Virus record (IMG/VR): IMGVR_UViG_3300049259_000011
Span: 1-43,631 of that record
Length of the DNA: 43,631 nt
Reading direction: 5' to 3' (one strand)
Origin: a virus
The notes under the pieces are model-generated. The model saw only the letters and a list, made by a program, of their open reading frames with translations, made no database searches and was not told the origin of the DNA. This document shows positions 3,232 through 29,097 of this stretch, one piece after another. Position 1 is the stretch's first letter. Each line of letters begins with the position of its first letter. Position numbers and translations under genes: made by a program.

Positions 3232-4842
3232 ATGCAGAAGATTGCTTTCCTCGGAGTGTTGATTGGGGCCGCATTATCTGCGACGAATGCGTTTGCCGCT
3301 CCGACCGCAACGACAATCCCATACGTCGCGAACAACGGGGCGTTGAAATCCCTCCCAACAACGCAATACAAATCCGGTGTGATGCGGTTGGGTTTCGTGA
3401 ATCCCGGCGACAGCAATCGCATTCTGTTTATCCCATCGAACTCGCCATGTACATTGCACGGTGGTACGGGAGACAATGGATCGCAAGTTCCTGGCATCAA
3501 TGGCAAGTGTTGGCTTGGCGTCTTTCCGATCGGCATATACGACGTAACAGCGTTCGGCGCGGATAAAACCGGCGGGGTTGATTCAGTCGTCAACATCCAA
3601 GATGCGGTGAATGCAGCTAGCGGCGGCGGCCAAGTCTATTTCCCCGCCGGATTTTACAAGCAATGCGGAGTTGTTAGCAGCACTGCGCCCGTCGATTTGA
3701 GGGGTGCGGGCAGTGGCGCGGGGCCGGGCTTAGTCCTCCCGCGCACGAGTATTCGTCTCTGTGGCGCAACGCAAGGCGGCTACCATATCACGGCGGGCTA
3801 TCGGTCGTTGTTCGACGGCTTCAACATGACTAGCCTCGTGCCGCAAACCGCCGGCGTCGGTATCCTACTCGACACAACCACAACCGTCGTCGCATCTCAA
3901 TCATTGTTCCGTGACTTATCGTTTGGCAACAGCTACACAACAACCAATCTATACAATCCAATCCAAGTCATCACGCCGAATTATCCTGATTTCCACAACA
4001 TATATTGCCAAGGATGGGTACTCGCATGTGTCAGCGAAACAACTGTCTCTGGCACGGAAGGTTCCGGTGGATACTTCGCGCATAATCACTTCTTCGGTGA
4101 TCCGGCCAACACCAGCCAAGGCCCACCGATCTACAGTGAAGTCGGCTACACCGATGTTCACGACAACGAAATCCTCGCCGGTAGCATTGGCGTTCAATTC
4201 GCCATCAAGAACCACGGCGGCGGTTGGATCAAAGTCCACGACAACACAATCGAAAACAGTCGAATCGCATCTATCGACCTGACATCGCAAGATGGCAGCA
4301 CACTCTCGAATATTATGTTACAGAACAACGAACTATCGAACCTTCTCTACACGTCGGCGTTTGCCGGCCATTTCATGATTCATGAATATCTCGTTGGCGG
4401 CGTCGCACAGAAGAACATATTCAATGACATTCACATCGAAGGAAATTCGCTGACTTCGAGCTTGCCCGTTAATGCGAAATATATGTGGATTCAAACGGGC
4501 AACGGCATCAACATTGCGAACAACAATGTCCGTGATATCGGCGTCGCTAATCCAGTCGCATTCCAAATCACGGGTCTTACCAGCAATGCGGGATATTCCG
4601 GCCCAATCGCCGTTAGTGACAACGGAGTTCTCGGTACAACCAACAAATACGCATTGCAAAACACAACGCCGGTGATTGTACGTGATATGATAAATGGATT
4701 GACAGTCGCACAATTGCCCGCGGCTGGCCCTGGATCGCAAATCTATGTATCAAACGGAACATTGGGAAGTTCCCCGTGTGTCGGCGGGGGCGTCGGTACA
4801 GTTGCATTTCTACTCGGTTCCGGCGCTTGGAAGTGTTTCTAA
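3232..4842 (+). CDS. Pectate-lyase-type beta-helix protein with signal peptide
   Basis: 536 residues. Residues 1 to about 23 form a Sec signal peptide (basic start, core AFLGVLIGAALSA, cleavage site near AFA-AP). Residue 100 onwards shows the entry signature of right-handed parallel beta-helix tailspikes: YDVTAFGADKTGGVDS, then NIQDAVNAASGGGQVYFPAG. Many Asn/Asp-rich rungs follow (for example YTDVHDNEILAGSIGV and NGINIANNNVRDIG). The C-terminus GGGVGTVAFLLGSGAWKCF resembles endings of phage fibre proteins. Such proteins usually bind or cleave surface polysaccharide. A signal peptide is unusual for a virion spike, so it may instead be a secreted depolymerase. It lies just upstream of the large terminase rather than with the tail genes. 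Confidence 0.7.
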   Translation: MQKIAFLGVLIGAALSATNAFAAPTATTIPYVANNGALKSLPTTQYKSGVMRLGFVNPGDSNRILFIPSNSPCTLHGGTGDNGSQVPGINGKCWLGVFPIGIYDVTAFGADKTGGVDSVVNIQDAVNAASGGGQVYFPAGFYKQCGVVSSTAPVDLRGAGSGAGPGLVLPRTSIRLCGATQGGYHITAGYRSLFDGFNMTSLVPQTAGVGILLDTTTTVVASQSLFRDLSFGNSYTTTNLYNPIQVITPNYPDFHNIYCQGWVLACVSETTVSGTEGSGGYFAHNHFFGDPANTSQGPPIYSEVGYTDVHDNEILAGSIGVQFAIKNHGGGWIKVHDNTIENSRIASIDLTSQDGSTLSNIMLQNNELSNLLYTSAFAGHFMIHEYLVGGVAQKNIFNDIHIEGNSLTSSLPVNAKYMWIQTGNGINIANNNVRDIGVANPVAFQITGLTSNAGYSGPIAVSDNGVLGTTNKYALQNTTPVIVRDMINGLTVAQLPAAGPGSQIYVSNGTLGSSPCVGGGVGTVAFLLGSGAWKCF

Positions 4843-4846
4843 CCCG

Positions 4847-6421
4847 ATGCCATCTCCGTTTCGCCCTGTCATCGAGAATATGTTTTCCATCGTGAACAAA
4901 GATGGAGTCACGGTTCCGTTCAAGCTGAATGCGATTCAATCCCGTCTGGATCAAGAATGGTCTCGACGCATCATCGTACCAAAAGCCCGTCAAGGCGGTA
5001 TATCAACCTATGTGATCGGTCGATATACGGCCAAATGTCTCGGCGTGGATAATCGTCGATGCGTGATCGTGTCGCACGAAGCCGACGCGACAAAGCGCCT
5101 CCTCGACAAATCACATTTCATCCTCGAACATCTGCGTATCCCTCAACGCCCCGTGCTGAAACGTTCATCCCGGAACGAAATCACGTTCGAGAAAACTAAT
5201 TCCACGATCTGGATTGGAACAGCCGGTGCCCACAACTTTGGACATGGCGACACTATCACCGATCTGCATCTTTCCGAACCTTCAAGATATGATGATCCCG
5301 ATAACATCGTCAAGGGATTGTTTCCCGCCGCCGAGCGTGGCGAGATCATTGCGGAATCTACAGGTAACGGTGTCGGCAATTGGTATCATCGACAGTGCGT
5401 TCGCGCCCGCGAAGGCCACGGATTTAAGTTGTTCTTTGTTCCGTGGACAGATATGCCGGAGTATTCCATGCCGGTTGATGACACGGCCGCTTTCATCCGA
5501 TCTTTGGATCATGACATGGGCGAGCCGGATTTACTGGCCGCCGGCGTCACCGTTCCTCAGCTTGCATGGCGACGCGAACGTCTCAACATCGATTTCGAGC
5601 GCGATCTAATCGCGTTCCGCGAAGCTTATCCATTCACCTTTGACGAATGCTTTCAAACAACCGGATATGGATTCTTCCAATCTGTATTGTATGCGGAAAC
5701 CGATCTATGGGGGCGTGAAGATGCCCATCTCTGGCGACTGGCAGATCATCCTAAGCCTGGGCTGTCGTATGTCTGTGGCGTTGACCCTGCTGGTGGGAAC
5801 GGTGGCAACAACTCGGTCGCGGAAGTGTTCTGCCTCGAAACGCGCGAACAAGTCGCCGAATTCGCCACCAACCGATTCGAACCCCCCGACTTCGCAGATG
5901 CAACTGCCGTTCTGTGTCGACGCTTCAACCACGCCTACGTCAACATCGAACGCAACAACCACGGATTGACATTCATCGCGAGATTCGTTGATCGATACCC
6001 ACGGTGGTTGATTCATCGAAACACAAACACAGCGCATGTCACTCAAGATGTGATGGTGCGGCTGGCGGATTATGGCACGATGACCGGACCGGCGAATCGT
6101 GGCGTCATGCTCGGCATGGCACGAGATATGCTTCGCACGCAATTTACAATCCATTCTCCATTGTTGAAATCTGAACTCGCCACGGTCGTCGAAAAAGCTG
6201 ATGGCAAGATCGAGGCTGAAATTGGATGTCTTGACGATCGAGTGTTCGCCACAATCATGGCGATGATGTGCCTCGAACGCGCCGGCGTAATGTTGACCGA
6301 CCCTGCCACGGCGAAATACGATGATCCAAACGCGCCGGTCGATCCATTCTCATGGGAATCGATCTTCGGCGAACGATACGCCGGGCCGGATGGCATTCCG
6401 ATCTCGGATCGGTTCCGTTGA
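4847..6421 (+). CDS. terL: Terminase large subunit
   Basis: 524 residues from ATG 4847, four bases after the preceding stop. The open frame back to 4745 only overlaps that gene. The N-terminal ATPase shows an adapted Walker A (PKARQGGISTY, about residue 45) and a Walker B-type stretch ending in an acidic residue (TDLHLSEPSRYDD). The C-terminal RNase H-like nuclease keeps its acids: Asp in CGVDPAGGNGGNNSVAE, Glu in VNIERNNHGL and Asp in AEIGCLDDRVFATIMAM. It is the motor that pumps DNA through the portal and cuts the concatemer. The length is normal for the family. Its stop shares one base with the next start (TGATG), so the following ATP-grasp gene is probably translated with it. Confidence 0.92.
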   Translation: MPSPFRPVIENMFSIVNKDGVTVPFKLNAIQSRLDQEWSRRIIVPKARQGGISTYVIGRYTAKCLGVDNRRCVIVSHEADATKRLLDKSHFILEHLRIPQRPVLKRSSRNEITFEKTNSTIWIGTAGAHNFGHGDTITDLHLSEPSRYDDPDNIVKGLFPAAERGEIIAESTGNGVGNWYHRQCVRAREGHGFKLFFVPWTDMPEYSMPVDDTAAFIRSLDHDMGEPDLLAAGVTVPQLAWRRERLNIDFERDLIAFREAYPFTFDECFQTTGYGFFQSVLYAETDLWGREDAHLWRLADHPKPGLSYVCGVDPAGGNGGNNSVAEVFCLETREQVAEFATNRFEPPDFADATAVLCRRFNHAYVNIERNNHGLTFIARFVDRYPRWLIHRNTNTAHVTQDVMVRLADYGTMTGPANRGVMLGMARDMLRTQFTIHSPLLKSELATVVEKADGKIEAEIGCLDDRVFATIMAMMCLERAGVMLTDPATAKYDDPNAPVDPFSWESIFGERYAGPDGIPISDRFR

Positions 6422-7701
6422 TGCGCGTTCTCGTCATGGGCAAAGAAGGCGATGGGTTCGGCATCGCACAACGCATGGCACTCGAAGGACATGATGTGGA
6501 TGTGTTCTGTGCGGATAAGCGATTTCGTCGGGCGTTGCGCGGGATTGTCAATCGCGTGCCGGCGTGGCCCGGCCCCGCGCGTCGGGCGGACCTTATCATA
6601 TGTGATTGCGTCGGAATGGGTCGATACGAATCGATCATGCGCGATCTAGCCAAACCCTCGATCGGATTCAGCGCCATATGCGACAAGATCGAACTTGATC
6701 GCGTGCTTGGTATGGATATGTTCCGCCGGGCGGGCATTTCGATCCCCGAAACACACGAATTCAAATCAGTTGCCGAGGCGGAATCAATCCCCGGCAAAGT
6801 TGGATGGGGCGACGGATGGGTAGTGAAAGCGAGCGGGAACATCTCGACGGCGAAAACGATGGTCGTCAAGGACGAAACATTGTGGCCGTCCGCGATCCGT
6901 CAGTTGCCCTCCCCGTCGAGTGGCATTCTCCAACGGATTATCGATGGAGTGGAAATTTCCACGGAGGGGTGGTTCAATGGCACCCGTTTCATCCTGCCGT
7001 TCAACCACACGTTCGAGGAGAAACGGTTTCTGACGGGGAACCTCGGATGCAACACAGGTTGCATGGGGAACGTGGTGATAGCGAGTCAGTCCAATCGCCT
7101 GACCAAAGCCACGGTCGAACGGATGACCGAGTTCCTTCGCATGATCGATTATCACGGGCCGTTCGACATAAACTGTATTGTCAACGAAAGCGGCGCATAC
7201 GCGCTTGAAGCGACATCGCGGATGGGATACGACGCGGCCGAGGCGATGTTTGAGGGTTTGGATGAACCCGTGGCCGAATTCTTGTATGATGTCGCCGTCG
7301 GCAAGAAGAAAACCATGAACCTGACGGATGATACGATGATTGCCGTGAGGTTGTCAATTCCGCCATGGCCGGCACGCAAACCCGATCACACGTCATTCGG
7401 TGAGCCGATCCGCGGCATCAACGATCGATCGCTTCCACATCTGTTTCTAACCGATGTGATGAAGGATGGCGAAGATTATGTCACGGCTGGAGGCGACGGC
7501 GTGTTGCTCAAAGCCACGGCTATCGGCCGCATGTCTCCCGCCAAAGACGCGAAATACAAAGATGACTACACATACGAAGCCCGGCGGCGCGTGTATCGAA
7601 CGCTGGATGGGATCGACGTCGCATCCAAGCAATATCGCACGGATGTCGGGATGCGTGTGAACGGTGACATCGCGAAGCTGAAATCCTGGGGATGGATTTG
7701 A
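6421..7701 (+). CDS. PurD-like ATP-grasp ligase
   Basis: 426 residues from ATG 6421, overlapping the terminase stop as TGATG. The order matches glycinamide ribonucleotide synthetase (PurD): a Rossmann-like N-terminal domain (MRVLVMGKEGDGFGIAQRM), then an ATP-grasp core with a nucleotide-binding lysine in WVVKASGNIST and a second strand QRIIDGVEISTEGWF. The PurD-type loop reads KRFLTGNLGCNTGCMGN, compared with a normal D-T-G-P-N-T-G-G-M-G. Near the end, where PurD has its N-R-F-G-D-P-E-T-Q motif, this protein has LEATSRMGYDAAEAM, so the metal/substrate end is altered. Purine synthesis genes are absent around it. The substrate is unknown; nucleotide, DNA or protein modification are all possible. 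Confidence 0.8.
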   Translation: MRVLVMGKEGDGFGIAQRMALEGHDVDVFCADKRFRRALRGIVNRVPAWPGPARRADLIICDCVGMGRYESIMRDLAKPSIGFSAICDKIELDRVLGMDMFRRAGISIPETHEFKSVAEAESIPGKVGWGDGWVVKASGNISTAKTMVVKDETLWPSAIRQLPSPSSGILQRIIDGVEISTEGWFNGTRFILPFNHTFEEKRFLTGNLGCNTGCMGNVVIASQSNRLTKATVERMTEFLRMIDYHGPFDINCIVNESGAYALEATSRMGYDAAEAMFEGLDEPVAEFLYDVAVGKKKTMNLTDDTMIAVRLSIPPWPARKPDHTSFGEPIRGINDRSLPHLFLTDVMKDGEDYVTAGGDGVLLKATAIGRMSPAKDAKYKDDYTYEARRRVYRTLDGIDVASKQYRTDVGMRVNGDIAKLKSWGWI

Positions 7702-7716
7702 ATCGGGAGCTGAATC

Positions 7717-7911
7717 GTGAGCAAGCCGAAAGGCCGCGCTATCATCCAACCATACGGATCAAAATTCGCCGTTATCATCGATGGACGGATTCACAACGTA
7801 TATAACTCACTAGATCATGCTCAAGTCGTTCGTGATGATTTGAATCAACGCAATGCGCGTCAAACGGACGACGCAATGCTGCCGCGTAACATTGAGAAGT
7901 TTCATGGTTGA
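7717..7911 (+). CDS. Small hypothetical protein upstream of portal
   Basis: 64 residues from a GTG start with GGGAG seven bases upstream. The sequence has a compact beta-beta-beta-helix look (RAIIQPYGSKFAVIIDGRIH, then NSLDHAQVVRDDLNQRN), similar to small AP2/integrase-type DNA-binding folds, though no family is certain. It overlaps the portal start by eight bases. Because it directly follows an ATP-grasp enzyme, a substrate role for that enzyme is conceivable, but nothing in the sequence shows it. Confidence 0.6.
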   Translation: MSKPKGRAIIQPYGSKFAVIIDGRIHNVYNSLDHAQVVRDDLNQRNARQTDDAMLPRNIEKFHG

Positions 7912-9631
7912 TGGATACACGCGCGGAGGCATCCCGATCCCGGAGTATTGGGTCGGCGAGATCAATCGGGGTAAAGCCTTCCGCAAGGAAAAAGCATTCG
8001 AGACGAAGTGGGCGGATTGGCGCCGATATTATCGCGGGGAATGGAAAGCCGGGATTCTGCCGTCGAATATCTTCTTCAAGATGATGCGGACGATGGTGCC
8101 GCGTATATACTATCGTAATCCGTCTGTGAGTCTAACGCCGACGCGTCCGGGGGTCGAGAATATGGTTCTGACCAAGCTCATGGAACGTGCGGACAACAAA
8201 CTCCACGATATCATGGGCACGAAAGGTCAGATGAAGCGTGCCGTGCAACAAGCGATCATGTTCGGCACGGGTGGCGTGCGGCTTGGCTATGGCGCGGAGT
8301 TCAGTCCGACTCCGGATGATCTTGGCACATCCGAACCCGACGCGGGCGGATCAAAATTCGCGCATCACGTCGAATACAACGATCTCGTGCATCCAAACAT
8401 GCCATGGTTGATGGCGGCGCATCCGGGGTCCGTGATTGTGCCAGTCGGCGCACCAGACATTCATGCCGCACGATGGGTATGTTTCGAGACGTGGCGATCC
8501 GCCGCCGATCTCAAAGCCGATCCACGGTTCAGACACACAGATTCGCTCGGCGATGGCACACACGCCGGTTCCGGCGGTATGCTGCTCGCAAAATCCAGCG
8601 GACAGAAAAGCCAGCCCGGCGTTCAACTGTGGGAAATCCGTGATAAGAAAACCGGCATGGTTTTCGTGATGGCGCCGAACGCGAACGATCAACGCTCATC
8701 ACAGCAGAAAACCCTGTATTGTGAGACGGATGATTTACTATACAACAAACGTCTGAACTATTATCCGCTCATCTTCAACATGGACGACGAGGCGTTCTGG
8801 GGGATTCCCGACAGTCAGATCATGGAACCCCAACAAATCGAGAAGAACGAAGTCCGCACACAGATGATGTATCATCGACGCGTCGCTCTCGCCAAGTTTC
8901 TGTATGAAACGGGATCAATCGCCCCCGACGAACTTGCCAAACTCGTCGATGGCAACATCTTCAACGGCATTCAGGTTAAATCAATCAACGGCGTGAAGGA
9001 ATTCAATCCTCCCGCCATCCCACCGGCATTGCTCCAAATGGAAGCTGATATCGATCGCGAGACGCAGGAAATCATCGGCCTCGGCGTCAATCAATTCGGC
9101 GAATACGCGCCGGGATCGGCGGACCGATCCGCGACCGAAAGCCAAATCGTCAATCAAGCCACACAAATCCGCATGGACGAACGCCGTGATGCGTGCGCCG
9201 ACCTGCTCACGGATGTAACCTCCCATATCAATCATATCATCCTCGAACATTGGACGGGCGACATCGTGCTTGATGTTATGGGGCCGGAAGGTGTGCCGAT
9301 CTGGATTAAGTTCCAAGCACATGAACTCAAGGATGCGTTGTATGATATCAAGATCGATCCAGATACATCCATCCCTCAAACCCGTCAACTTCGCGAACAA
9401 CGCGCGTTCGCATTGTACGCCCAACTGAAACAGAATCCGCTCATCGATCCGATGCAGTTGACGCGATATCTCACAAATGAGATTGATGGCGTGTGGGCGG
9501 ACAGTTTAATCAAGATGCAAAACACATCGCCGCAGAATCCCGCACCGTTGAGTGCCGTGATACAATCAGCTGGGGCTGGTGGCCCCGGCGGCCAAGGCGG
9601 CGGCACGCCCCCGCAACTTCCAGGAACTTGA
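7904..9631 (+). CDS. Portal protein
   Basis: 575 residues from ATG 7904, which lies inside the previous gene's end. The earlier in-frame region from 7853 is a shadow. The protein has the make-up of podovirus portals: an N-terminal polar region (WRRYYRGEWKAGILPSN, VPRIYYRNPSVSLTP), a helical AVQQAIMFGTGGVRLGYG segment, and a stem/clip-like segment (DDEAFWGIPDSQIMEPQQIE). A long helix containing NRETQ/DRETQEIIGLG follows, then a Gly/Pro-rich tail. The portal forms the dodecameric ring at one capsid vertex, docking the terminase during packaging and the tail afterwards. Its place after the large terminase and before the scaffold and capsid genes supports the call. Confidence 0.88.
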   Translation: MVDGYTRGGIPIPEYWVGEINRGKAFRKEKAFETKWADWRRYYRGEWKAGILPSNIFFKMMRTMVPRIYYRNPSVSLTPTRPGVENMVLTKLMERADNKLHDIMGTKGQMKRAVQQAIMFGTGGVRLGYGAEFSPTPDDLGTSEPDAGGSKFAHHVEYNDLVHPNMPWLMAAHPGSVIVPVGAPDIHAARWVCFETWRSAADLKADPRFRHTDSLGDGTHAGSGGMLLAKSSGQKSQPGVQLWEIRDKKTGMVFVMAPNANDQRSSQQKTLYCETDDLLYNKRLNYYPLIFNMDDEAFWGIPDSQIMEPQQIEKNEVRTQMMYHRRVALAKFLYETGSIAPDELAKLVDGNIFNGIQVKSINGVKEFNPPAIPPALLQMEADIDRETQEIIGLGVNQFGEYAPGSADRSATESQIVNQATQIRMDERRDACADLLTDVTSHINHIILEHWTGDIVLDVMGPEGVPIWIKFQAHELKDALYDIKIDPDTSIPQTRQLREQRAFALYAQLKQNPLIDPMQLTRYLTNEIDGVWADSLIKMQNTSPQNPAPLSAVIQSAGAGGPGGQGGGTPPQLPGT

Positions 9632-20759: not shown

Positions 20760-23393
20760 ATGCCGTTGTCGTTGGATGATTTGAAGGCGATTCCGCAGCC
20801 GGGGGCGTCGCCGCCCCCGACATCAACGGCTGTCCCATCACCGACGACGCCTCCGGTTGAAACTCCAACGTCTTCGCCTGGCGTGCAAGGAGACGGCGCG
20901 CCGATCGGATATTCAGTCAATCAACCACGGCTGCAGGTTCGCCCCGCGCCGCGAGATCGGTCTGCCCTCGACAATATGGCGAATGCCGTCGATCTGTCGG
21001 AAAGTGGTGGGGAACACTTCGATAAGAATGGCAAGATCAAAGCGTCGGCGAAAGGCGCTATGGGGCGCATGGGATTGATGCCGAATACAGCCGCAGAGAT
21101 CGGTGTTGATCCAACGGATGAGAAACAGAATCTCGCAGGAGGCAAGCAATACCTTGGCATGATGTTCGATAGGTATCAGAATTGGGACGATGCACTCGCC
21201 GCATATAATTGGGGACCGGGGAACGTCGATAAGTGGATCACACGCGGCAAAGACCCGGACAAAATGCCGGCCGAGACGCGATCCTACATCGCCAGCACAT
21301 TGCGTCGGGCCGGGATGAGCGTGGATTCACCGACATCGGTTGTTGCGGCGAAGCGTGGACTCACGGCGGCCGATCTCGAAGAAATCCCCCAAGGCGATGT
21401 CAAACCCGACAGCCAGACATCCGTATCGCCTCGTCGCGATGTTCTTGATGATCTGCGCGAACCATTCAAGGACATCCCAGGACTCGGATTCGTTGACGAA
21501 ACCATGCACGCGACGGCTGTGAATATGACGCGGGGGATGCGGAATTTGATGGCCGGGCCGACACAAGCGGCGCTCGAACAAGCCAATCCCGATCTCGCGA
21601 AACAATTCACCGAGGCGATGGATCAATATGACAATCAATTCGAGGAATTAAACGCTAAGCATCCATGGGCGGCGCAGGTCGGGGATGTCGTCGGTACGGT
21701 ACTTGGGATTGCTGTGGGGGCGAAGGCGTTAGCTCCGGCGGGCGCGGCAATCGCGGCGCGGACGGCGTTGCCGGCGACGGTCGGCCGATACATCGGCACC
21801 ATTGGAACGAGTGCGGCTGGCGGCGCGGCGTTATCTGCGACTGCGTTCCATCCCGACGACAATCACATGAACCGGATTGTTGAAGGCGCGCTTGGCGCGA
21901 CGCTCGGTGGATTGTTCGCAACGGCTGGCCGTGCCGTCATGTACGGTGCACGAAATCTCGCCGACACAAACACATACAAAGCATTTATCGAACAAGTTAG
22001 TCAATCCGTGCGTGATTTGACCCCATCAACAACTAAGTTGAAAACCTCGTTCCTCGCGAATTATGATGCGAAATGGACGGAGAAGAATGCAAAATACACC
22101 GTTCGGAACACCTTCGGCGAACAAATCGATGGATTTCCGTATGAGGAAATGGCGCGTTCGGCGAAAGATGCAATCGCCGGATCGCGGGAAGCCGGCGTGG
22201 CGCCATCAAGTCAAACACAAGCGACGGCGCGGAAAGTCGCGGAAGAACTTGGCGTAGCACGACGTGAAGTCGCCAGGGCCGAACATCAGCGCAAGATCGA
22301 CGAATATGACAGTGCCGTGAAGCTGCGGAATGAAGTGCCGATCGGTGGACGCAAGTTATCGGATATGCCAGAAGCCGAACGGGCCGAGATGGCGAGGAGA
22401 TTGGATGAGGCGGATGCATTGCCTCCCGTGCCGGATCATCCGGGCGAATTCGTCGCGGAGCCAATCAAGGCCGAGGAATACTCTGCTGCGCGGACGGCGA
22501 TCAACGCTGCGATCGGTCGGGCGAAGAATGACGTGCGGACGCGGACACAATTGACCGCCATGTTGCGAAACATGGACCGTGCGGCGAAAGATACGGCGAA
22601 CGAGGCCGGCATGTCGGCGGACGCGTATATCCGCGCGCAGACCGAGGCGAACGATTATTACAAACGGAATATCGCCCCGATCCAAAAGATATTCGGCAAG
22701 CCGGAAGATGTGAGAGGCGATCCCACCATCGCAAACACCGGCATCACGAATGCCAAGTTCTTCGATCAAGCGGTGAAGATGATCGAAGGATACGATATGG
22801 AAGCCTTGAGGGCATACAAAGAAATCATGGGCAGAGAAGCCCAGCCGGAGCTGATTCGGATTGGCGCGTATCGAATGTTGACATCCGTGACGGAAGCTGC
22901 TGTGAAGGGAAGTAAAGGGGGCGACGTGACGGGAGCTAAAGCGATGAAATCATGGATCACAGATCATCGCGAGGCGATTCAAGAATTGATGGGGCGCGAA
23001 GGCGTCGAGCAAATGCGCGGGATGGCGGCGATCGCCGAACGTATCGCGGCGCGGCCGCTGTCGAACCGGAACATCATCACGGGGACGCTTGGTCATCATC
23101 CGTGGCTCGGCGGATTGATGATTCTCGAAGGCATTCGACGCGGGGCGATGGGAACGGTTGCGCTCGGCGGCGGTATTCTCGCCCTTCAAAACCCCGCCGT
23201 GCAGCATATCATATTCAACGGGTTGAATGTCATCACGAAGATTCCGACCATGGCACCAATCATCCGGCGGGCGGCAAAGACGAAGCCGGATTCGCCGGAG
23301 ATGGATCGAATCATGCAAGAAATCGATCGGCGCGTGAAGTGGGGATCAGCGGCGACAGCTCGGGCGACGGTTCAGCCAGGTCCAGGGAGATAG
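20760..23393 (+). CDS. Ejection protein with lytic transglycosylase domain
   Basis: 877 residues, last gene of the plus arm. After a Pro-rich start, residues about 70 to 180 form a lytic transglycosylase (SLT) domain. The catalytic Glu is in DLSESGGEHFDKNG, followed by SAKGAMGRMGLMPNTAAEIG and DDALAAYNWGPGNVDKWI, which match the E-S, G-x-M-Q-x-x-P and A-Y-N-x-G motifs (one motif has R-M-G in place of M-Q). The middle has an Ala/Gly-rich membrane-like stretch (VVGTVLGIAVGAKALAPAGA). The rest is helical. It should enter the cell with the DNA and cut peptidoglycan locally. The last 83 bases overlap the convergent helicase gene. Confidence 0.85.
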   Translation: MPLSLDDLKAIPQPGASPPPTSTAVPSPTTPPVETPTSSPGVQGDGAPIGYSVNQPRLQVRPAPRDRSALDNMANAVDLSESGGEHFDKNGKIKASAKGAMGRMGLMPNTAAEIGVDPTDEKQNLAGGKQYLGMMFDRYQNWDDALAAYNWGPGNVDKWITRGKDPDKMPAETRSYIASTLRRAGMSVDSPTSVVAAKRGLTAADLEEIPQGDVKPDSQTSVSPRRDVLDDLREPFKDIPGLGFVDETMHATAVNMTRGMRNLMAGPTQAALEQANPDLAKQFTEAMDQYDNQFEELNAKHPWAAQVGDVVGTVLGIAVGAKALAPAGAAIAARTALPATVGRYIGTIGTSAAGGAALSATAFHPDDNHMNRIVEGALGATLGGLFATAGRAVMYGARNLADTNTYKAFIEQVSQSVRDLTPSTTKLKTSFLANYDAKWTEKNAKYTVRNTFGEQIDGFPYEEMARSAKDAIAGSREAGVAPSSQTQATARKVAEELGVARREVARAEHQRKIDEYDSAVKLRNEVPIGGRKLSDMPEAERAEMARRLDEADALPPVPDHPGEFVAEPIKAEEYSAARTAINAAIGRAKNDVRTRTQLTAMLRNMDRAAKDTANEAGMSADAYIRAQTEANDYYKRNIAPIQKIFGKPEDVRGDPTIANTGITNAKFFDQAVKMIEGYDMEALRAYKEIMGREAQPELIRIGAYRMLTSVTEAAVKGSKGGDVTGAKAMKSWITDHREAIQELMGREGVEQMRGMAAIAERIAARPLSNRNIITGTLGHHPWLGGLMILEGIRRGAMGTVALGGGILALQNPAVQHIIFNGLNVITKIPTMAPIIRRAAKTKPDSPEMDRIMQEIDRRVKWGSAATARATVQPGPGR

Positions 23394-24690
23394 CCTCGCC
23401 GCCGGCTTCGGCCGCAGCTTTGGCTTCGTTCTGGATCGCGGTCGGACCAAGGACGAGTGTAACCCCGGAAATGTCCTGCTCACGCTTCAACCATCCCGCC
23501 GCGAGCAAATGCCCAATCATGTTCTGCGCGTCGCGGAACGTCATAAACGACATCGTGTAGCCATATACAAGGCGTTCGGGCAGCCCATCCGTTTCCTTGA
23601 TCTTGTCGCGGATATAATTCCACACTGACATATTCAATTTGGCTTGACGGCTGGCTTGTTGTTGTGTGCCGAAGACCATAGATAACTCGTTCTCGATTTC
23701 ATCGCATCGTGCGATGGCGTCGCGTAGATCGGTCAACGACACGACGGCGGCATCGCCCCGCGCACACGCCAGCACAAGCGCCAGCTTGTTGATGTGATCC
23801 CATTTCCGCGCGAGATAATACGCCAGCCAGGGGTCCGCGTCGGGATGTTGCGACAACAACGAACATCGATTGCCATGGACAGTGTACCATTTCTCGCCAT
23901 AGGCTTCGGCGTCGGGAGACATGGTGTATTCACCGGAGAGGCGCGAGATTTCGCATAGATCAGCGGTGAATGCCGCGGCTTTGCGGTCATATTCACCCGA
24001 CCATAGCTTATGCGGATATGCGATGAATCGTTCGGGCTTGTCACAATAGATGAAGATGATGCGGGACGATAATCCCCATCCGCCGAAATGGCCGCGGAAG
24101 TTGTCTCTCAACCACATCGGCGTCGTGCCGGCGATGATGTTCACGAATGGATTCATGATCGTGTTGTCGCCCTGGGTTTTGGTTGATTTTTGCCACGGGG
24201 TATCGACTTTGCCATCCCAGAATTCGGTCAATACGTTGACCATTTCCTTGTCGAGTGGGTTGAAGAACGTCCCGAATTCCGACAACGCGACGGTGATCGC
24301 AGATGTGACGGTGTGGTTTTGATTTATCAAATCGATCTTGAATCCGGGCGACGCACCTTCGGCGAATACATCTTTAGCTTCTTCGAGATGTTGAACGAAT
24401 TCTTGCCAGGTTGTGCAGTCTGCGCCGAATTGGATGTTGGGAACATCCCGCAGCATCCGCATTCCGATGTTGATGGTTGAGGATTTCTTCACAGTGCCAG
24501 GTGGGCCGACCAGAATCACATACATATGTGGGAACCATCGAAACGATCCTTGATCGATCCATACGCGACGGCGCAGCACGCCGGCGATGGTTGAGGCCGC
24601 CGTCCAGAAGTGGAATTTCTCCGGCGCCTCGCCGCGTGGCGTCATAATCGCGACGTAGTTCTCAATCCAATCCGAGAAGTTACGAGCCAC
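23311..24690 (-). CDS. DUF3987-type replicative helicase/primase-like ATPase
   Basis: 459 residues from a GTG start. A P-loop GPPGTVKKSSTINIG lies near residue 65 and a Walker B-like strand SAITVALSEFGTFF near residue 130. TIMNPFVNIIAGTTPMWLRD resembles a sensor segment that reports ATP state. The overall order matches DUF3987/YfjI-like phage proteins, which are thought to unwind DNA at the fork. The C-terminal 150 residues include a winged-helix-like part (MTFRDAQNMIGHLLAAGWLK). It follows the polymerase genes in the same operon. It is the terminal gene of the minus arm and shares its last 83 bases with the ejection gene on the other strand. No separate DnaB or primase gene is seen. Confidence 0.7.
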   Translation of the reverse strand: MARNFSDWIENYVAIMTPRGEAPEKFHFWTAASTIAGVLRRRVWIDQGSFRWFPHMYVILVGPPGTVKKSSTINIGMRMLRDVPNIQFGADCTTWQEFVQHLEEAKDVFAEGASPGFKIDLINQNHTVTSAITVALSEFGTFFNPLDKEMVNVLTEFWDGKVDTPWQKSTKTQGDNTIMNPFVNIIAGTTPMWLRDNFRGHFGGWGLSSRIIFIYCDKPERFIAYPHKLWSGEYDRKAAAFTADLCEISRLSGEYTMSPDAEAYGEKWYTVHGNRCSLLSQHPDADPWLAYYLARKWDHINKLALVLACARGDAAVVSLTDLRDAIARCDEIENELSMVFGTQQQASRQAKLNMSVWNYIRDKIKETDGLPERLVYGYTMSFMTFRDAQNMIGHLLAAGWLKREQDISGVTLVLGPTAIQNEAKAAAEAGGEAISLDLAEPSPELSPLIPTSRADRFLA

Positions 24691-24859: not shown

Positions 24860-25099
24860 TTATGCGCCTCGAAGATATTGCGTGAGATTACTCAGCCATG
24901 TAGATAGTGGTATAAGCGCATCACACTTCGGACAATACGCATATCCGAATAAATCGGTCCGGCGGATATAAGATTCGAGATGCTTACATTCTGGATCGGT
25001 CCGTTCGATCATATCTCGCCATTCGGCGTTTTGTTCTTTTGATGCCTCAATCACATCCGCATCGATCAGCCAACGATAGAATCGTCTTATCCATGCCAT
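24860..25099 (-). CDS. Small zinc-ribbon-like protein
   Basis: 79 residues from ATG 25099, or 85 from ATG 25117. The first is preferred because it overlaps the polymerase end by only 13 bases. It has an N-terminal helical part (RRFYRWLIDADVIEASKEQN). Near the end, CKHLESYIRRTD is followed by YAYCPKCDALIPLSTW, and the CPKC pair plus an earlier Cys-x-His looks like a zinc ribbon. It lies between the polymerase C-terminal gene and the helicase, so it may help the replication complex. No family is known to me. Confidence 0.6.
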   Translation of the reverse strand: MAWIRRFYRWLIDADVIEASKEQNAEWRDMIERTDPECKHLESYIRRTDLFGYAYCPKCDALIPLSTWLSNLTQYLRGA

Positions 25100-25869
25100 T
25101 TGACCATCGAGCCCCAATCGGTTGCGGAATGTTTGATTTCAATCGGGATAACCAACGGATCAGGGTATGGGACGGTGATTGCCATAGCCACTTTCAGCCG
25201 ATCGACAATTGTGTCGTCGAACAAGTCTGCGCGGATTTGCATGAGCAACGAGTCGTGAATTTGCATGAGGAGTTGAAACTCGGGCAAGGTGCGATGGATA
25301 TTGAGCATGGCATGGTTGATGACAATCGCGACCGTGGATTGACAAACCCAGGCCAAGGCTTGACCGAGAAGATGTGAAGATCGATCGGTGTAAACTCGGC
25401 GGAACCCGAACGCATTTCGGACTTGAGCGATACGGCGAGCGGTGAGTTCATACTCATATCGTTTGTGCCATTCGCCGATTTCGGGATGCCGTTCGCGCGT
25501 CCACCATCGGATCGATCGTTTGACGCGATCTTCCGGCACGACGATGGCTTGGGCGATCGTGCGCGCGCCGCCGGCGTAATCCGTTGCGTGGACCCAACGT
25601 TTCGCATTATCACGGAATGACAGACCGTTGACGTGCATGGCGCGGGGGTTGGGCTTCGCGAGTCCACCATATAGTTCAATCGCGTTCTCGGAATGGATAT
25701 CATCTCCGCGTTGGAAAGCGACTTTCAGATCATCGCATCCGGCATCCCAAGCACAAACTTGAGCATCCGCGCGTTCAAGATCGGCTTCGACGAGGATATA
25801 TCCCGGATCGGGTTGAAAACATGCGCGGATGTTCGGGAGTTTGAGGGCATATAGATCGCCGTCCGGCAT
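25087..25869 (-). CDS. DNA polymerase A, C-terminal half (palm and fingers)
   Basis: 260 residues from ATG 25869, with GGAAG just upstream. It carries the three catalytic motifs of family A polymerases: motif A ILVEADLERADAQVCAW (catalytic Asp), motif B NAKRWVHATDYAGGARTIAQ (Lys and Tyr of the O-helix), and motif C LLMQIHDSLLMQI (HD pair, with Ser instead of the usual Glu after it). It starts at LYALKLPNIRACFQPDPGY, the segment that normally follows N-L-Q-N-I-P in an intact enzyme. The matching first half is encoded 1.5 kb upstream in a separate gene. The two chains must meet to form an active enzyme, unless this half acts alone. Confidence 0.85.
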   Translation of the reverse strand: MPDGDLYALKLPNIRACFQPDPGYILVEADLERADAQVCAWDAGCDDLKVAFQRGDDIHSENAIELYGGLAKPNPRAMHVNGLSFRDNAKRWVHATDYAGGARTIAQAIVVPEDRVKRSIRWWTRERHPEIGEWHKRYEYELTARRIAQVRNAFGFRRVYTDRSSHLLGQALAWVCQSTVAIVINHAMLNIHRTLPEFQLLMQIHDSLLMQIRADLFDDTIVDRLKVAMAITVPYPDPLVIPIEIKHSATDWGSMVKWHG

Positions 25870-25870
25870 T

Positions 25871-26461
25871 TCACTTCCACCATCCCGTTGTGCGGCCGTG
25901 GAAGTAGATTTCACGACATGCGAGGACATCGGCCATGGCGGAATGCGCGTTGTCGAAGTCTCGCCCGAAGCAGAATTGATATGCTTCCATCAACTTCGGC
26001 CATTTGAACTTGCCGTATCGACCGGGCATCTGCATGATGGGCGTGAGGGCTTCCATCGTGCAGAATGGACGCAGAGTATTCATCACGGCGACGGGAATCA
26101 TCGTGCGCGACAGTTCGTTCAACATAATCATCACGTCGAATGAGAAGTTGTGTGCGATGACGAGAGAATCCGGATCAGCGTCGAATGCGGTTTCGATCAT
26201 CTCGACGAATGCGGGCAAGATGAAATCGATTGGCTTCCCGACGTGATGGGCTTTCGCTGTGGTGATGCCGTGGATTTCGGCGACATCATGCGGGATAGTC
26301 CAGCCTTCGGGGAGAATGATATAGTCGAGAGACCGGATGTGTGTGCCGTCCCCCGCGTCGAGAAAAGCACCGAGTTGCACGAGCCGGGGTTGGGATGGAT
26401 GATCCGTGGGGAGCTTTCGATTGATCATGCCGTTGGTTTCGGTGTCGATGAACAGCAACAT
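25871..26461 (-). CDS. DnaQ-like DEDDh 3'-5' exonuclease
   Basis: 196 residues from ATG 26461. The longer frame back to 26896 is a shadow of the neighbouring gene. Exo I is FIDTETNGM (Asp and Glu), Exo II is VIAHNFSFDVMIML (Asp) and Exo III is DNAHSAMADVLACREIY (His and Asp), so it is a DEDDh enzyme with all acids and the His in place. It should trim 3' ends of DNA or RNA in the manner of DNA polymerase III epsilon. It lies inside the block that separates the two polymerase genes and ends one base before the C-terminal polymerase start. The first polymerase gene has its own exonuclease domain, so the phage has two. Confidence 0.85.
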   Translation of the reverse strand: MLLFIDTETNGMINRKLPTDHPSQPRLVQLGAFLDAGDGTHIRSLDYIILPEGWTIPHDVAEIHGITTAKAHHVGKPIDFILPAFVEMIETAFDADPDSLVIAHNFSFDVMIMLNELSRTMIPVAVMNTLRPFCTMEALTPIMQMPGRYGKFKWPKLMEAYQFCFGRDFDNAHSAMADVLACREIYFHGRTTGWWK

Positions 26462-26466
26462 GGGGA

Positions 26467-26784
26467 TCAAACTCCCGCGCCGATGTCTGGGTCTTCGCCG
26501 GGCAATGGATCGCCATCGGTCCCCGGCGCAGGGATGGCGAGATCGATCGACGCATCGACGGCAACGAATCCATCGAGTGAGTCGGGATTCGATCCACGCT
26601 TGACGGCAACGCTCGGACGCATTGCTAGCATGAGCGGGAAGGCTTTGCCATTCACATCGAACACGGTGTCTGCGGATTCCGGTACGACGGGAATGCAGCC
26701 GAGAAGGCGGCCAGATTCGAGTTCTCGAACCTCGGTGAAGCCTTCGGACATGCAACGGATAAACTGTGATGGATCGGACATCAT
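26467..26784 (-). CDS. Hypothetical protein in polymerase gap (105 aa)
   Basis: 105 residues with an ATGA overlap to the previous gene. The N-terminal half may hold a small beta fold (EGFTEVRELESGRLLGCIPV). The tail is Pro-, Asp- and Gly-rich and probably disordered (AIPAPGTDGDPLPGEDPDIG). No catalytic motif is seen. It is one of five genes between the two polymerase halves. Function unknown. Confidence 0.6.
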   Translation of the reverse strand: MMSDPSQFIRCMSEGFTEVRELESGRLLGCIPVVPESADTVFDVNGKAFPLMLAMRPSVAVKRGSNPDSLDGFVAVDASIDLAIPAPGTDGDPLPGEDPDIGAGV

Positions 26785-26969
26785 GCGCTCCAGTTGAATA
26801 GGTGGTACATTGGCGGGTTTTCAAGAAGCTTTTGGAGTCGGAGTTCTGCCTGTCGGGCAGTCTCTCTTGCATCAACAATAGCTTTTCGTGCGTCATTTAG
26901 ATATACTTCATAACGCCAAGCGGTGTCGTTTGCTTGATAACTTGATGCATCGAATGGTCCGTGCGGCAT
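26781..26969 (-). CDS. Small helical protein in polymerase gap
   Basis: 62 residues from ATG 26969. It overlaps the stop of the second reading frame of the broken gene upstream as TGATG and the next gene as ATGA. The centre is a charged helix (DARKAIVDARETARQAELRL) that could form a coiled coil. It probably has no enzymatic role. Its start position supports the view that the upstream gene once ended at 26969. Confidence 0.6.
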   Translation of the reverse strand: MPHGPFDASSYQANDTAWRYEVYLNDARKAIVDARETARQAELRLQKLLENPPMYHLFNWSA

Positions 26970-27162
26970 CAAATCAATCCTTTCCGTTTCGCCCAGCTTT
27001 CGGGTATGGCCATGGTTCGGGATGTGGCGTCGTATTCGCCAACCGATTTAGGAATCCACACATCATCATTCGTGCCGCATCGATCAGCCATGCGCCGTCG
27101 GTTTGATGAATAATTGTGCAGACGATATCGATGATGTCGGAGTTGCCGAGACGGTTTTTCAT
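26969..27162 (-). pseudogene. Frameshifted small protein gene
   Basis: Started at ATG 27162 (ATGA overlap with the previous gene), the frame reads DIVCTIIHQTDGAWLIDA and then runs on as an unlikely Met-rich sequence to 26974. From the next frame, beginning near 27076, comes TNDDVWIPKSVGEYDATS, then MAIPESWAKRKGLI, ending at 26969. Joining them gives WLIDAGTNDDVWIPKSVGEY, a pattern I know from small phage proteins of about 60 residues. One missing G in the GCGG run at about 27075 to 27077 would explain it. It could be an assembly error, a real mutation or recoding; no slippery heptamer is visible. Confidence 0.65.
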
Positions 27163-27410
27163 GGGGGGGACTCCTTCCATCGTTTGAGATCGTATTCAGT
27201 CGGCGATTCATCCGCGATAAATGCCCATTCCCCTTCACGCCAATACCAATATCGATATTGATCGGGGGGAATGAATACTTGACGACGGATTTCGGCTTTC
27301 GGATGAACTTTACGAAATGTTTGTAATGTGTATTTAGCAGATCGCAGAGATGTTGGCGGGCCGAGAGGTTGTGCGCCTTCAATAACTTGATACCGATATC
27401 TATTAGACAT
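27159..27410 (-). CDS. Small hypothetical protein after polymerase N-half
   Basis: 83 residues from ATG 27410, four bases after the stop of the first polymerase gene. It has an N-terminal beta segment (RYRYQVIEGAQPLGPPTS), then a helical, basic part (SAKYTLQTFRKVHPKAEIRR) and several aromatic residues (PPDQYRYWYWREGEWAFIAD). It is not a homing endonuclease, an intein piece or a transposase by any motif that I can see. It is the first gene of the block that separates the two polymerase halves. Confidence 0.65.
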   Translation of the reverse strand: MSNRYRYQVIEGAQPLGPPTSLRSAKYTLQTFRKVHPKAEIRRQVFIPPDQYRYWYWREGEWAFIADESPTEYDLKRWKESPP

Positions 27411-27414
27411 GAAA

Positions 27415-29097
27415 TCAATCCTCATCCGGTTTCTTAAAGTTCTGTAGGTTTCGGCCTTCGCCGAACGCATTCGTATTCGTTGAGAATCTCATCGTCTCGA
27501 CATATGTTACGTTTATGTCGCAATGCAGCCGACCGTCGAATGCGATCATGTCGGGATCGACATCGCCTTTCACCGTATCCAGAGTTCGATAGTGTTGGAT
27601 ATTGCGGACGAGGGGCAACAGCAAAGGGTTCTGCCGTCCGATGACTTCAAGGGTTCCATCGTCAAGCGTAGCGGCACCTGTTTTTCGGTTACGTTGAATG
27701 GACAGCTTAAAGTCGTCATAAAACAATGCCTTACATTGTGGATTGGACAATGGATTGAAATCATGCCCGAGACACGCGGCTAGCCATTGGCCGATTCGGG
27801 CTTTTTCATCTTCAAACTCCGATCGGATAACACGGGCACGCGCCGCGTCGAATCGAATGCCCCGAAACATCATCTCGAATACAGGCGCGAACAAATCCAT
27901 CTCGAATCGATATTGATCCGTGAGGTTCAATCCGGCGAGTATACGCGACAATTCTCGTCGGCATTCCCAAGTCCGCACGCAATCCTCGCAATTGTAGGCC
28001 CATCGTTGGAGCGGAGAGTGTATTGCCGGGTCCCAGAGTTTCCCGTCGTCTTTCCAATAGCGGTAGTATTCGCAGTACATACTTGATATAAAGGACAAAG
28101 AAAGCGACGAACCTTTCTTGTCAACGCGTCCGGTGATGGGATCAATCTTGCCTCCCAGGAGCCCAGGAAAGGCGACGTGTTGCATCGCCATGGTGTCGTC
28201 GATGAGACGCGGCATAATGCCCCATCGATTCGCGATTACTTGAACGTCGTATATGGCGTTGTGGAACGTGATATCTCGCTGAGTAAGCGATGAACTGACA
28301 CATTCAAGCAGATGAATTTCCTCTTGCTCCGTCCAGTATGGCGTACCGTCTGCAAGGAAGAACGGAATGGAAATCGCATCGACAGTGCTTGATGCAAAAC
28401 CAATCGTGTCGATATGGCTCGACATCGTTTCGATGTCCGCGACCAAGGCGTTCGGGTTGTCATGCAGCCAATCCATGACATCGGTGAAGCGGGGTTGAGT
28501 TACAAATCGCCATGCGGGACGGCGGACTTCGGGGAACGCGGATTCGGCTTTCGCCCGGCGGAAATCTTGAACAACGATGGGGCGGTGGGCATATTGACGG
28601 AGAACGTCTGCCGGATGAAACGTCGGGATGACCTTGCCGTGGTCAGTGTCAAGGATTGAACCTCGCCATTTCGTGATGCCCATTTCACCCGCCAAGGCCC
28701 ACATCGGAGTGTTCCCGAGGGCAATGATAAGACGCGGATGGAATGCGCGAATGATTGCATGAAGATGTTCAAGTCCGACGCGGATTTCATTAGTAGGAAA
28801 TCGGCCAGCAATCTCGCTGAGGCCGCGCCGCCGGGCTTCAAGTTTCCCGACGAAGAATTGTTCGATGTCATTCGTGATTGTCTTTCCCTTGGCGTTGGTA
28901 TATGTGGGCGGGCGAATATGACAGACGTTGGTTGCGAAGCAATCGGATCGAGTAATCCCGGCTTCGGCGAGCATTCGATCGAGTTCCATGCCGGATGCAC
29001 CACGGAACGGCAGGGATTGGGCGATCTCAACCTCGCCCGGTGCTTCGCCGACAAGCCAGATCGGCGCGCGGGGATCGCCGGATTCAATCCATGTCAT
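27415..29097 (-). CDS. Uracil-DNA glycosylase / exonuclease / DNA polymerase A N-terminal half
   Basis: 560 residues from ATG 29097 (ATGA overlap; a GTG two codons earlier is possible). Residues about 1 to 190 form a family 4/5-type uracil-DNA glycosylase: LVGEAPGEVEIAQSLPFRGA, NVCHIRPP, and the late motif FHPADVLR. Residues about 215 to 400 are a 3'-5' exonuclease: Exo I ALVADIETMSSH, Exo II ITFHNAIYDVQVIANRWG, Exo III YNCEDCVRTWE. Then comes the start of the polymerase domain, ending TMRFSTNTNAFGEGRNLQNF plus six residues. Intact enzymes continue past N-L-Q-N to catalytic motif A, but here a stop codon follows. Motifs A, B and C are in a separate gene at 25087 to 25869. Confidence 0.85.
   Translation of the reverse strand: MTWIESGDPRAPIWLVGEAPGEVEIAQSLPFRGASGMELDRMLAEAGITRSDCFATNVCHIRPPTYTNAKGKTITNDIEQFFVGKLEARRRGLSEIAGRFPTNEIRVGLEHLHAIIRAFHPRLIIALGNTPMWALAGEMGITKWRGSILDTDHGKVIPTFHPADVLRQYAHRPIVVQDFRRAKAESAFPEVRRPAWRFVTQPRFTDVMDWLHDNPNALVADIETMSSHIDTIGFASSTVDAISIPFFLADGTPYWTEQEEIHLLECVSSSLTQRDITFHNAIYDVQVIANRWGIMPRLIDDTMAMQHVAFPGLLGGKIDPITGRVDKKGSSLSLSFISSMYCEYYRYWKDDGKLWDPAIHSPLQRWAYNCEDCVRTWECRRELSRILAGLNLTDQYRFEMDLFAPVFEMMFRGIRFDAARARVIRSEFEDEKARIGQWLAACLGHDFNPLSNPQCKALFYDDFKLSIQRNRKTGAATLDDGTLEVIGRQNPLLLPLVRNIQHYRTLDTVKGDVDPDMIAFDGRLHCDINVTYVETMRFSTNTNAFGEGRNLQNFKKPDED

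Follow-up and report, generated by a model that had tools for sequence, protein, structure and literature searches.

A family A DNA polymerase encoded by two reading frames

The family A DNA polymerase of the window (the whole 43.6 kb stretch that was analysed, from an IMG/VR virus record) is encoded by two ORFs, both of which have a start and a stop codon of their own. The first, denoted the N-half (27415-29097, minus strand, 560 aa), carries a UDG domain at aa 6-170 (Pfam, 1.6e-23), a 3'-5' exonuclease, the thumb and the first palm strands, and its C-terminus reads GRNLQNFKKPDED, i.e. it stops 7 residues past the NLQN motif. The second, or C-half (25087-25869, minus strand, 260 aa), begins with MPDGDLYALKLPNIRACFQPDPGY, where 10 residues precede LPN, and supplies the remaining palm and the fingers, including motif A (D30), motif B (R86/K90) and motif C (HDS, 205-207). 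Motif C reads HDS and not HDE across the family, in fused and split members alike. The gene after the polymerase (23311-24690) matches the DNA primase family PHROG_14296 (9e-60), and in several relatives, too, the polymerase is followed by a similar gene.

Profile searches divide a single polymerase between the two ORFs. Positions 7-125 of Pfam DNA_pol_A (PF00476) match the N-half at 28.5 bits, under the cut-off of 34.3, while positions 140-371 match the C-half at 69.8 bits, over the cut-off. The PHROG_17 DNA polymerase profile is continuous over the break (479-989 on the N-half, 996-1237 on the C-half). On the chain of the Bst Pol I large fragment, 326 is the last residue reached by the profile of the N-half and 339 the first reached by that of the C-half, so that only a short stretch lies between them. 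An earlier note on this DNA had described a family A polymerase in two separately translatable ORFs at these positions, with no domain lost, and the coordinates, Pfam, PHROG_17 and the Bst residue numbers are all in agreement with it. Its assignment of glycosylase and exonuclease to one subunit also stands, but that of the catalytic site to the other subunit alone does not. Going by the Klenow fold, the break falls within the palm, past NLQN and ahead of motif A, and a break inside the palm means that the catalytic site requires both chains: its residues are on the C-half, and the thumb and first palm strands on the N-half.

The gap between the halves, about 1.5 kb, holds five genes, all on the minus strand: one for a DnaQ-like exonuclease and four small ones. 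The DnaQ-like 3'-5' exonuclease gene (25871-26461; RNase_T, 1.5e-8) lies directly upstream of the C-half, and is also present in the gap of the window's clade. It is preceded by a 105 aa gene with no assigned function (26467-26784), likewise kept in the gap of this clade (phmmer, 2.5e-15 to locus L001), a 63 aa gene with a TTG start (26781-26972), to which a gene in the L020 gap is homologous (1.9e-11), a small, apparently frame-disrupted gene (about 26969-27162), two frames of which each match one ORF of L117, and an 83 aa gene (27159-27410) that starts 4 nt past the N-half stop codon. Packing is tight, with a single nucleotide between the DnaQ stop codon and the ATG of the C-half (TGA-A-ATG). 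A Shine-Dalgarno-like sequence, GATGAGGAT (27418-27426, minus strand), is formed by the last N-half codons (DED) just upstream of the start codon at 27408-27410, and by inspection the final DnaQ codons provide a similar GGAAG (25874-25878, minus strand) upstream of the C-half ATG. The idea that DnaQ makes up for a dead exonuclease was dropped, since the exonuclease residues of the N-half are conserved. The earlier note had seen no intein ends, intron signs or homing nuclease at the breaks, and this was borne out in the window: Pfam found no HNH or other endonuclease domain among the gap genes, no relevant intron came up when the window and 12 split loci were scanned with Rfam, and inspection revealed neither intein-like ends at either break terminus nor split intein fragments in the 7 residues past NLQN and the 10 before LPN.

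Split and fused relatives

Searching IMG/VR with profiles of both halves retrieved 130 distinct loci whose C-half is near-complete, among which 61 are split at the junction, 65 are joined and four are without the N side. The break is therefore common to 61 of the 126 relatives in which both halves are resolved, beyond what chance would give, and it occurs at the same site, after NLQNxxKGDEE and before LPN[IV]R. The same split, with one gene between the halves, is found in an isolate, Vibrio phage vB_VspS_VS-ABTNL-3. Joined versions of the gene, which the earlier note had proposed to look for as a possible sign of assembly error, do exist, but they belong to more distant relatives; the nearest relatives are all split, and an assembly error is rejected. 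A search of the GTDB genome collection for a host gave three distant matches, all of them metagenome-assembled, and pointed to no particular host.

The gaps of the split loci range from 2 to 2,623 bp, and 14 of the 61 are 60 bp or shorter and without cargo. In cargo-free splits the stop and start codons overlap in different frames, as an ATGA in L056, L112, L114, L062 and L078. Elsewhere the cargo is varied (RNase_T, HNH_3, dUTPase, Lon_C, deoxynucleotide kinase, ThyX, methyltransferase, Acb1 and others), and the majority of it across the relatives is unrelated to endonucleases. Gap content differs even between close relatives: L106 and L109 have near-identical halves, yet gaps of 756 and 574 bp, and the gaps of L078 and L071 are 14 and 202 bp, respectively. 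The Acb1 anti-CBASS domain is in the gap of L018 (1450-1836, assigned by reading). A di-haem oxidoreductase-like ORF in the gap of L024 (4501-5997) could be cargo or the product of a chimeric contig; the gap of its sister L110 is just 330 bp.

Both halves bear signs of function. Among related split loci, pairwise dN is far below dS in both halves (mostly 0.05-0.25), and D30, K90, H205 and D206 show no variation across 55 split C-halves. Both halves are under purifying selection in split relatives, and the earlier view of the split as natural is supported. Predicted alone, the C-half of the window has a mean pLDDT of 95.6, and the model matches Taq, Klenow and Pol theta (Foldseek E 1e-12 and TM by query 0.76 against the Taq large fragment); on this model, the C-half is predicted to adopt a Klenow-type palm and fingers fold by itself. 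In a fused homologue of 791 residues, the two blocks of lowest pLDDT make up residues 541-560, which is the junction. Distances between N-halves and between C-halves are correlated about equally in split (r = 0.48) and fused loci (r = 0.55). Selection, invariant residues, predicted fold and N/C distances are all compatible with two chains making one enzyme.

Recurrence of the break and the junction codons

In quick tree searches, with SH-aLRT as the only support measure, the window falls within an all-split clade in the C-half tree (17 rows; 96, starred) and within an all-split group in the concatenated tree (13 rows; 99, starred). On the latter, eight changes between the fused and split states are needed, at least six of which are forced by starred branches. 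A single-clade origin of the split was rejected by the AU test (p = 1.4e-8, a nominal value that overstates independence because the sequences are related), the constraint costing 557 log-likelihood units on the 54-row set. The distant outgroups examined (a Desulfofustis phage, vir526 and actinobacteriophages) are single-chain, making fission the likelier direction and re-fusion the less likely one. The same gene was thus probably broken several times independently, by repeated fission at one cut site.

The codons after NLQN, which encode (P)KG(D/G)E(E), read, e.g., AAGGGAGATGAGGA-ATGA, and resemble a Shine-Dalgarno (SD) sequence. The median duplex energy of the junction with the anti-SD core is -7.3 where the gene is split and -6.0 where it is fused, compared to about -2.7 elsewhere in the same genes. 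In fused genes the junction energy equals the synonymous expectation under their own codon use (-6.08 vs -6.07), and their SD-like site is a by-product of the peptide. Split genes have a stronger site than expected (-7.13 vs -5.57; Wilcoxon p = 1.6e-7, nominal and overstating independence among related sequences). The match to expectation in fused genes and the excess over it in split ones suggest that the peptide provides a ribosome-binding site by accident, which fission uses and selection then improves. In the window itself the site is modest: its energy of -5.6 lies at the 35th percentile among synonymous variants. ATGA is enriched at the N-half stop, where it occurs in 20 of 49 cases against 133 of 622 in the control (p = 0.0026, likewise nominal).

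Probable gene fission, alternatives and known systems

The explanation we consider likely is recurrent gene fission that yielded a two-chain family A replicase. Both chains would be translated separately from one operon and would most likely join non-covalently, giving a polymerase of the Klenow type that has a UDG domain at its N-terminus. The junction would be a flexible stretch in the palm, and the (P)KG(D/G)E(E) codons, by doubling as an SD sequence, offer a likely reason for repeated fission at this place. A small indel may come first, putting a stop and a start codon together (often as ATGA) right behind the SD-like site; the outcome would be two translationally coupled cistrons with every domain kept. 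The new cistron boundary could then accept cargo genes, in the lineage of the window a DnaQ exonuclease among them. A broader proposal is slightly more likely than not: that a conserved replicase peptide doubling as a ribosome-binding site constitutes a predisposed fission codon, that a large phage lineage repeatedly broke its replicase there, and that the boundary is now a place where genes for nucleotide metabolism, nucleases and anti-defence functions insert.

An alternative, which appears unlikely as a general explanation, is that insertion of a homing endonuclease gene split the polymerase and that the endonuclease gene was afterwards lost by decay or gave way to other cargo. There is precedent in T4-like phages, and in Aeh1 the NrdA gene is split by mobE, an HNH endonuclease gene, with the split enzyme remaining functional (PMC2988022). 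HNH_3 genes do lie in the gaps of three split relatives (L006, L079 and L023), and that of L120 has a similar gene without a Pfam match, so homing may explain some of the splits. However, the gap of the window is without HNH, the fourteen loci with gaps of 60 bp or less are free of any cargo, the cargo of the others is mainly not endonuclease-related, and the SD-like junction sequence is already present in fused genes. Aeh1 NrdA is like the polymerase of the window in being a phage enzyme made as separately translated chains, which in Aeh1 are functional together, but it is a ribonucleotide reductase, and the splitting was done by an HNH endonuclease gene.

It is highly improbable that an undetected self-splicing intron or split intein rejoins the halves as RNA or protein. 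Phage DNA polymerase genes are known to carry introns (PMC3428280), and two members of the family have intein-like insertions: L062 inside exo III of the N-half (ORF 3464-5983; YN|C...HN|CEDAV) and L123 at a catalytic motif of the C-half (ORF 7688-9352; PQ|C...GN|STVA). Against this are the absence of Rfam matches in the window and the 12 scanned split loci, the overlapping stop and start codons in different frames in cargo-free splits, N-halves that stop a few residues past NLQN with no space for an intein fragment, and the selection on SD strength in split genes, which points to independent initiation. Least credible is a polymerase in decay or an assembly artefact: one gap gene is apparently frame-disrupted, but the break is repeated in the isolate Vibrio phage as well as in assemblies made independently, dozens in number, catalytic residues are invariant in split C-halves, and dN/dS is low in both halves.

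Fission into two chains that assemble, our preferred reading, can be set beside other phage polymerases. In the T4-like Aeromonas phages 25 and 44RR the polymerase is split into 43A and 43B, and in phage 25 the two chains co-purify and polymerise (PMC2988022). As in the window, a phage replicative polymerase is made as two chains with DNA between their genes, but 43A/43B belong to family B, and either a seg endonuclease or a spacer that is not translated accompanies them. In the OM43 phages MEP401 and MEP402 a family A polymerase is split and a small ORF separates its parts; the authors suspected an intron (PMC10580990). These share with the window the polymerase family, the two ORFs and a break between NLQN and motif A; they differ in that the N-half is without a UDG domain and the break is further on, just ahead of motif A. 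MEP401/402 were the only other split family A phage polymerases found in the open-access literature searched, which likewise yielded neither a description of fission recurring at one site nor one of a junction ribosome-binding site. The UDG-exonuclease-PolA polymerases of MW202489 and Microcystis phage Mel-JY34 have the domain order and sequence family of the window polymerase (about 35-37% identity), but their halves are joined in a single chain.

Split replicases have so far been known as isolated cases. Here, an essential enzyme has several times switched at one codon between a single-chain and a two-chain form, and relatives of both kinds can be compared, which makes the route from one protein to two subunits directly testable, including the built-in ribosome-binding site. 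Naturally separable polymerase halves also become available for study, and annotation pipelines may list such phages as having truncated polymerases.

Members of this gene family have a second recurrent break, which separates the exonuclease domain from the polymerase domain, in L011, L038, L045, L047, L061 and L173 (MW202554), the isolate Caulobacter phage Kuura being among the cases. In L027 and L088 the gene is broken inside the UDG domain or behind it, a possible third region of fission.
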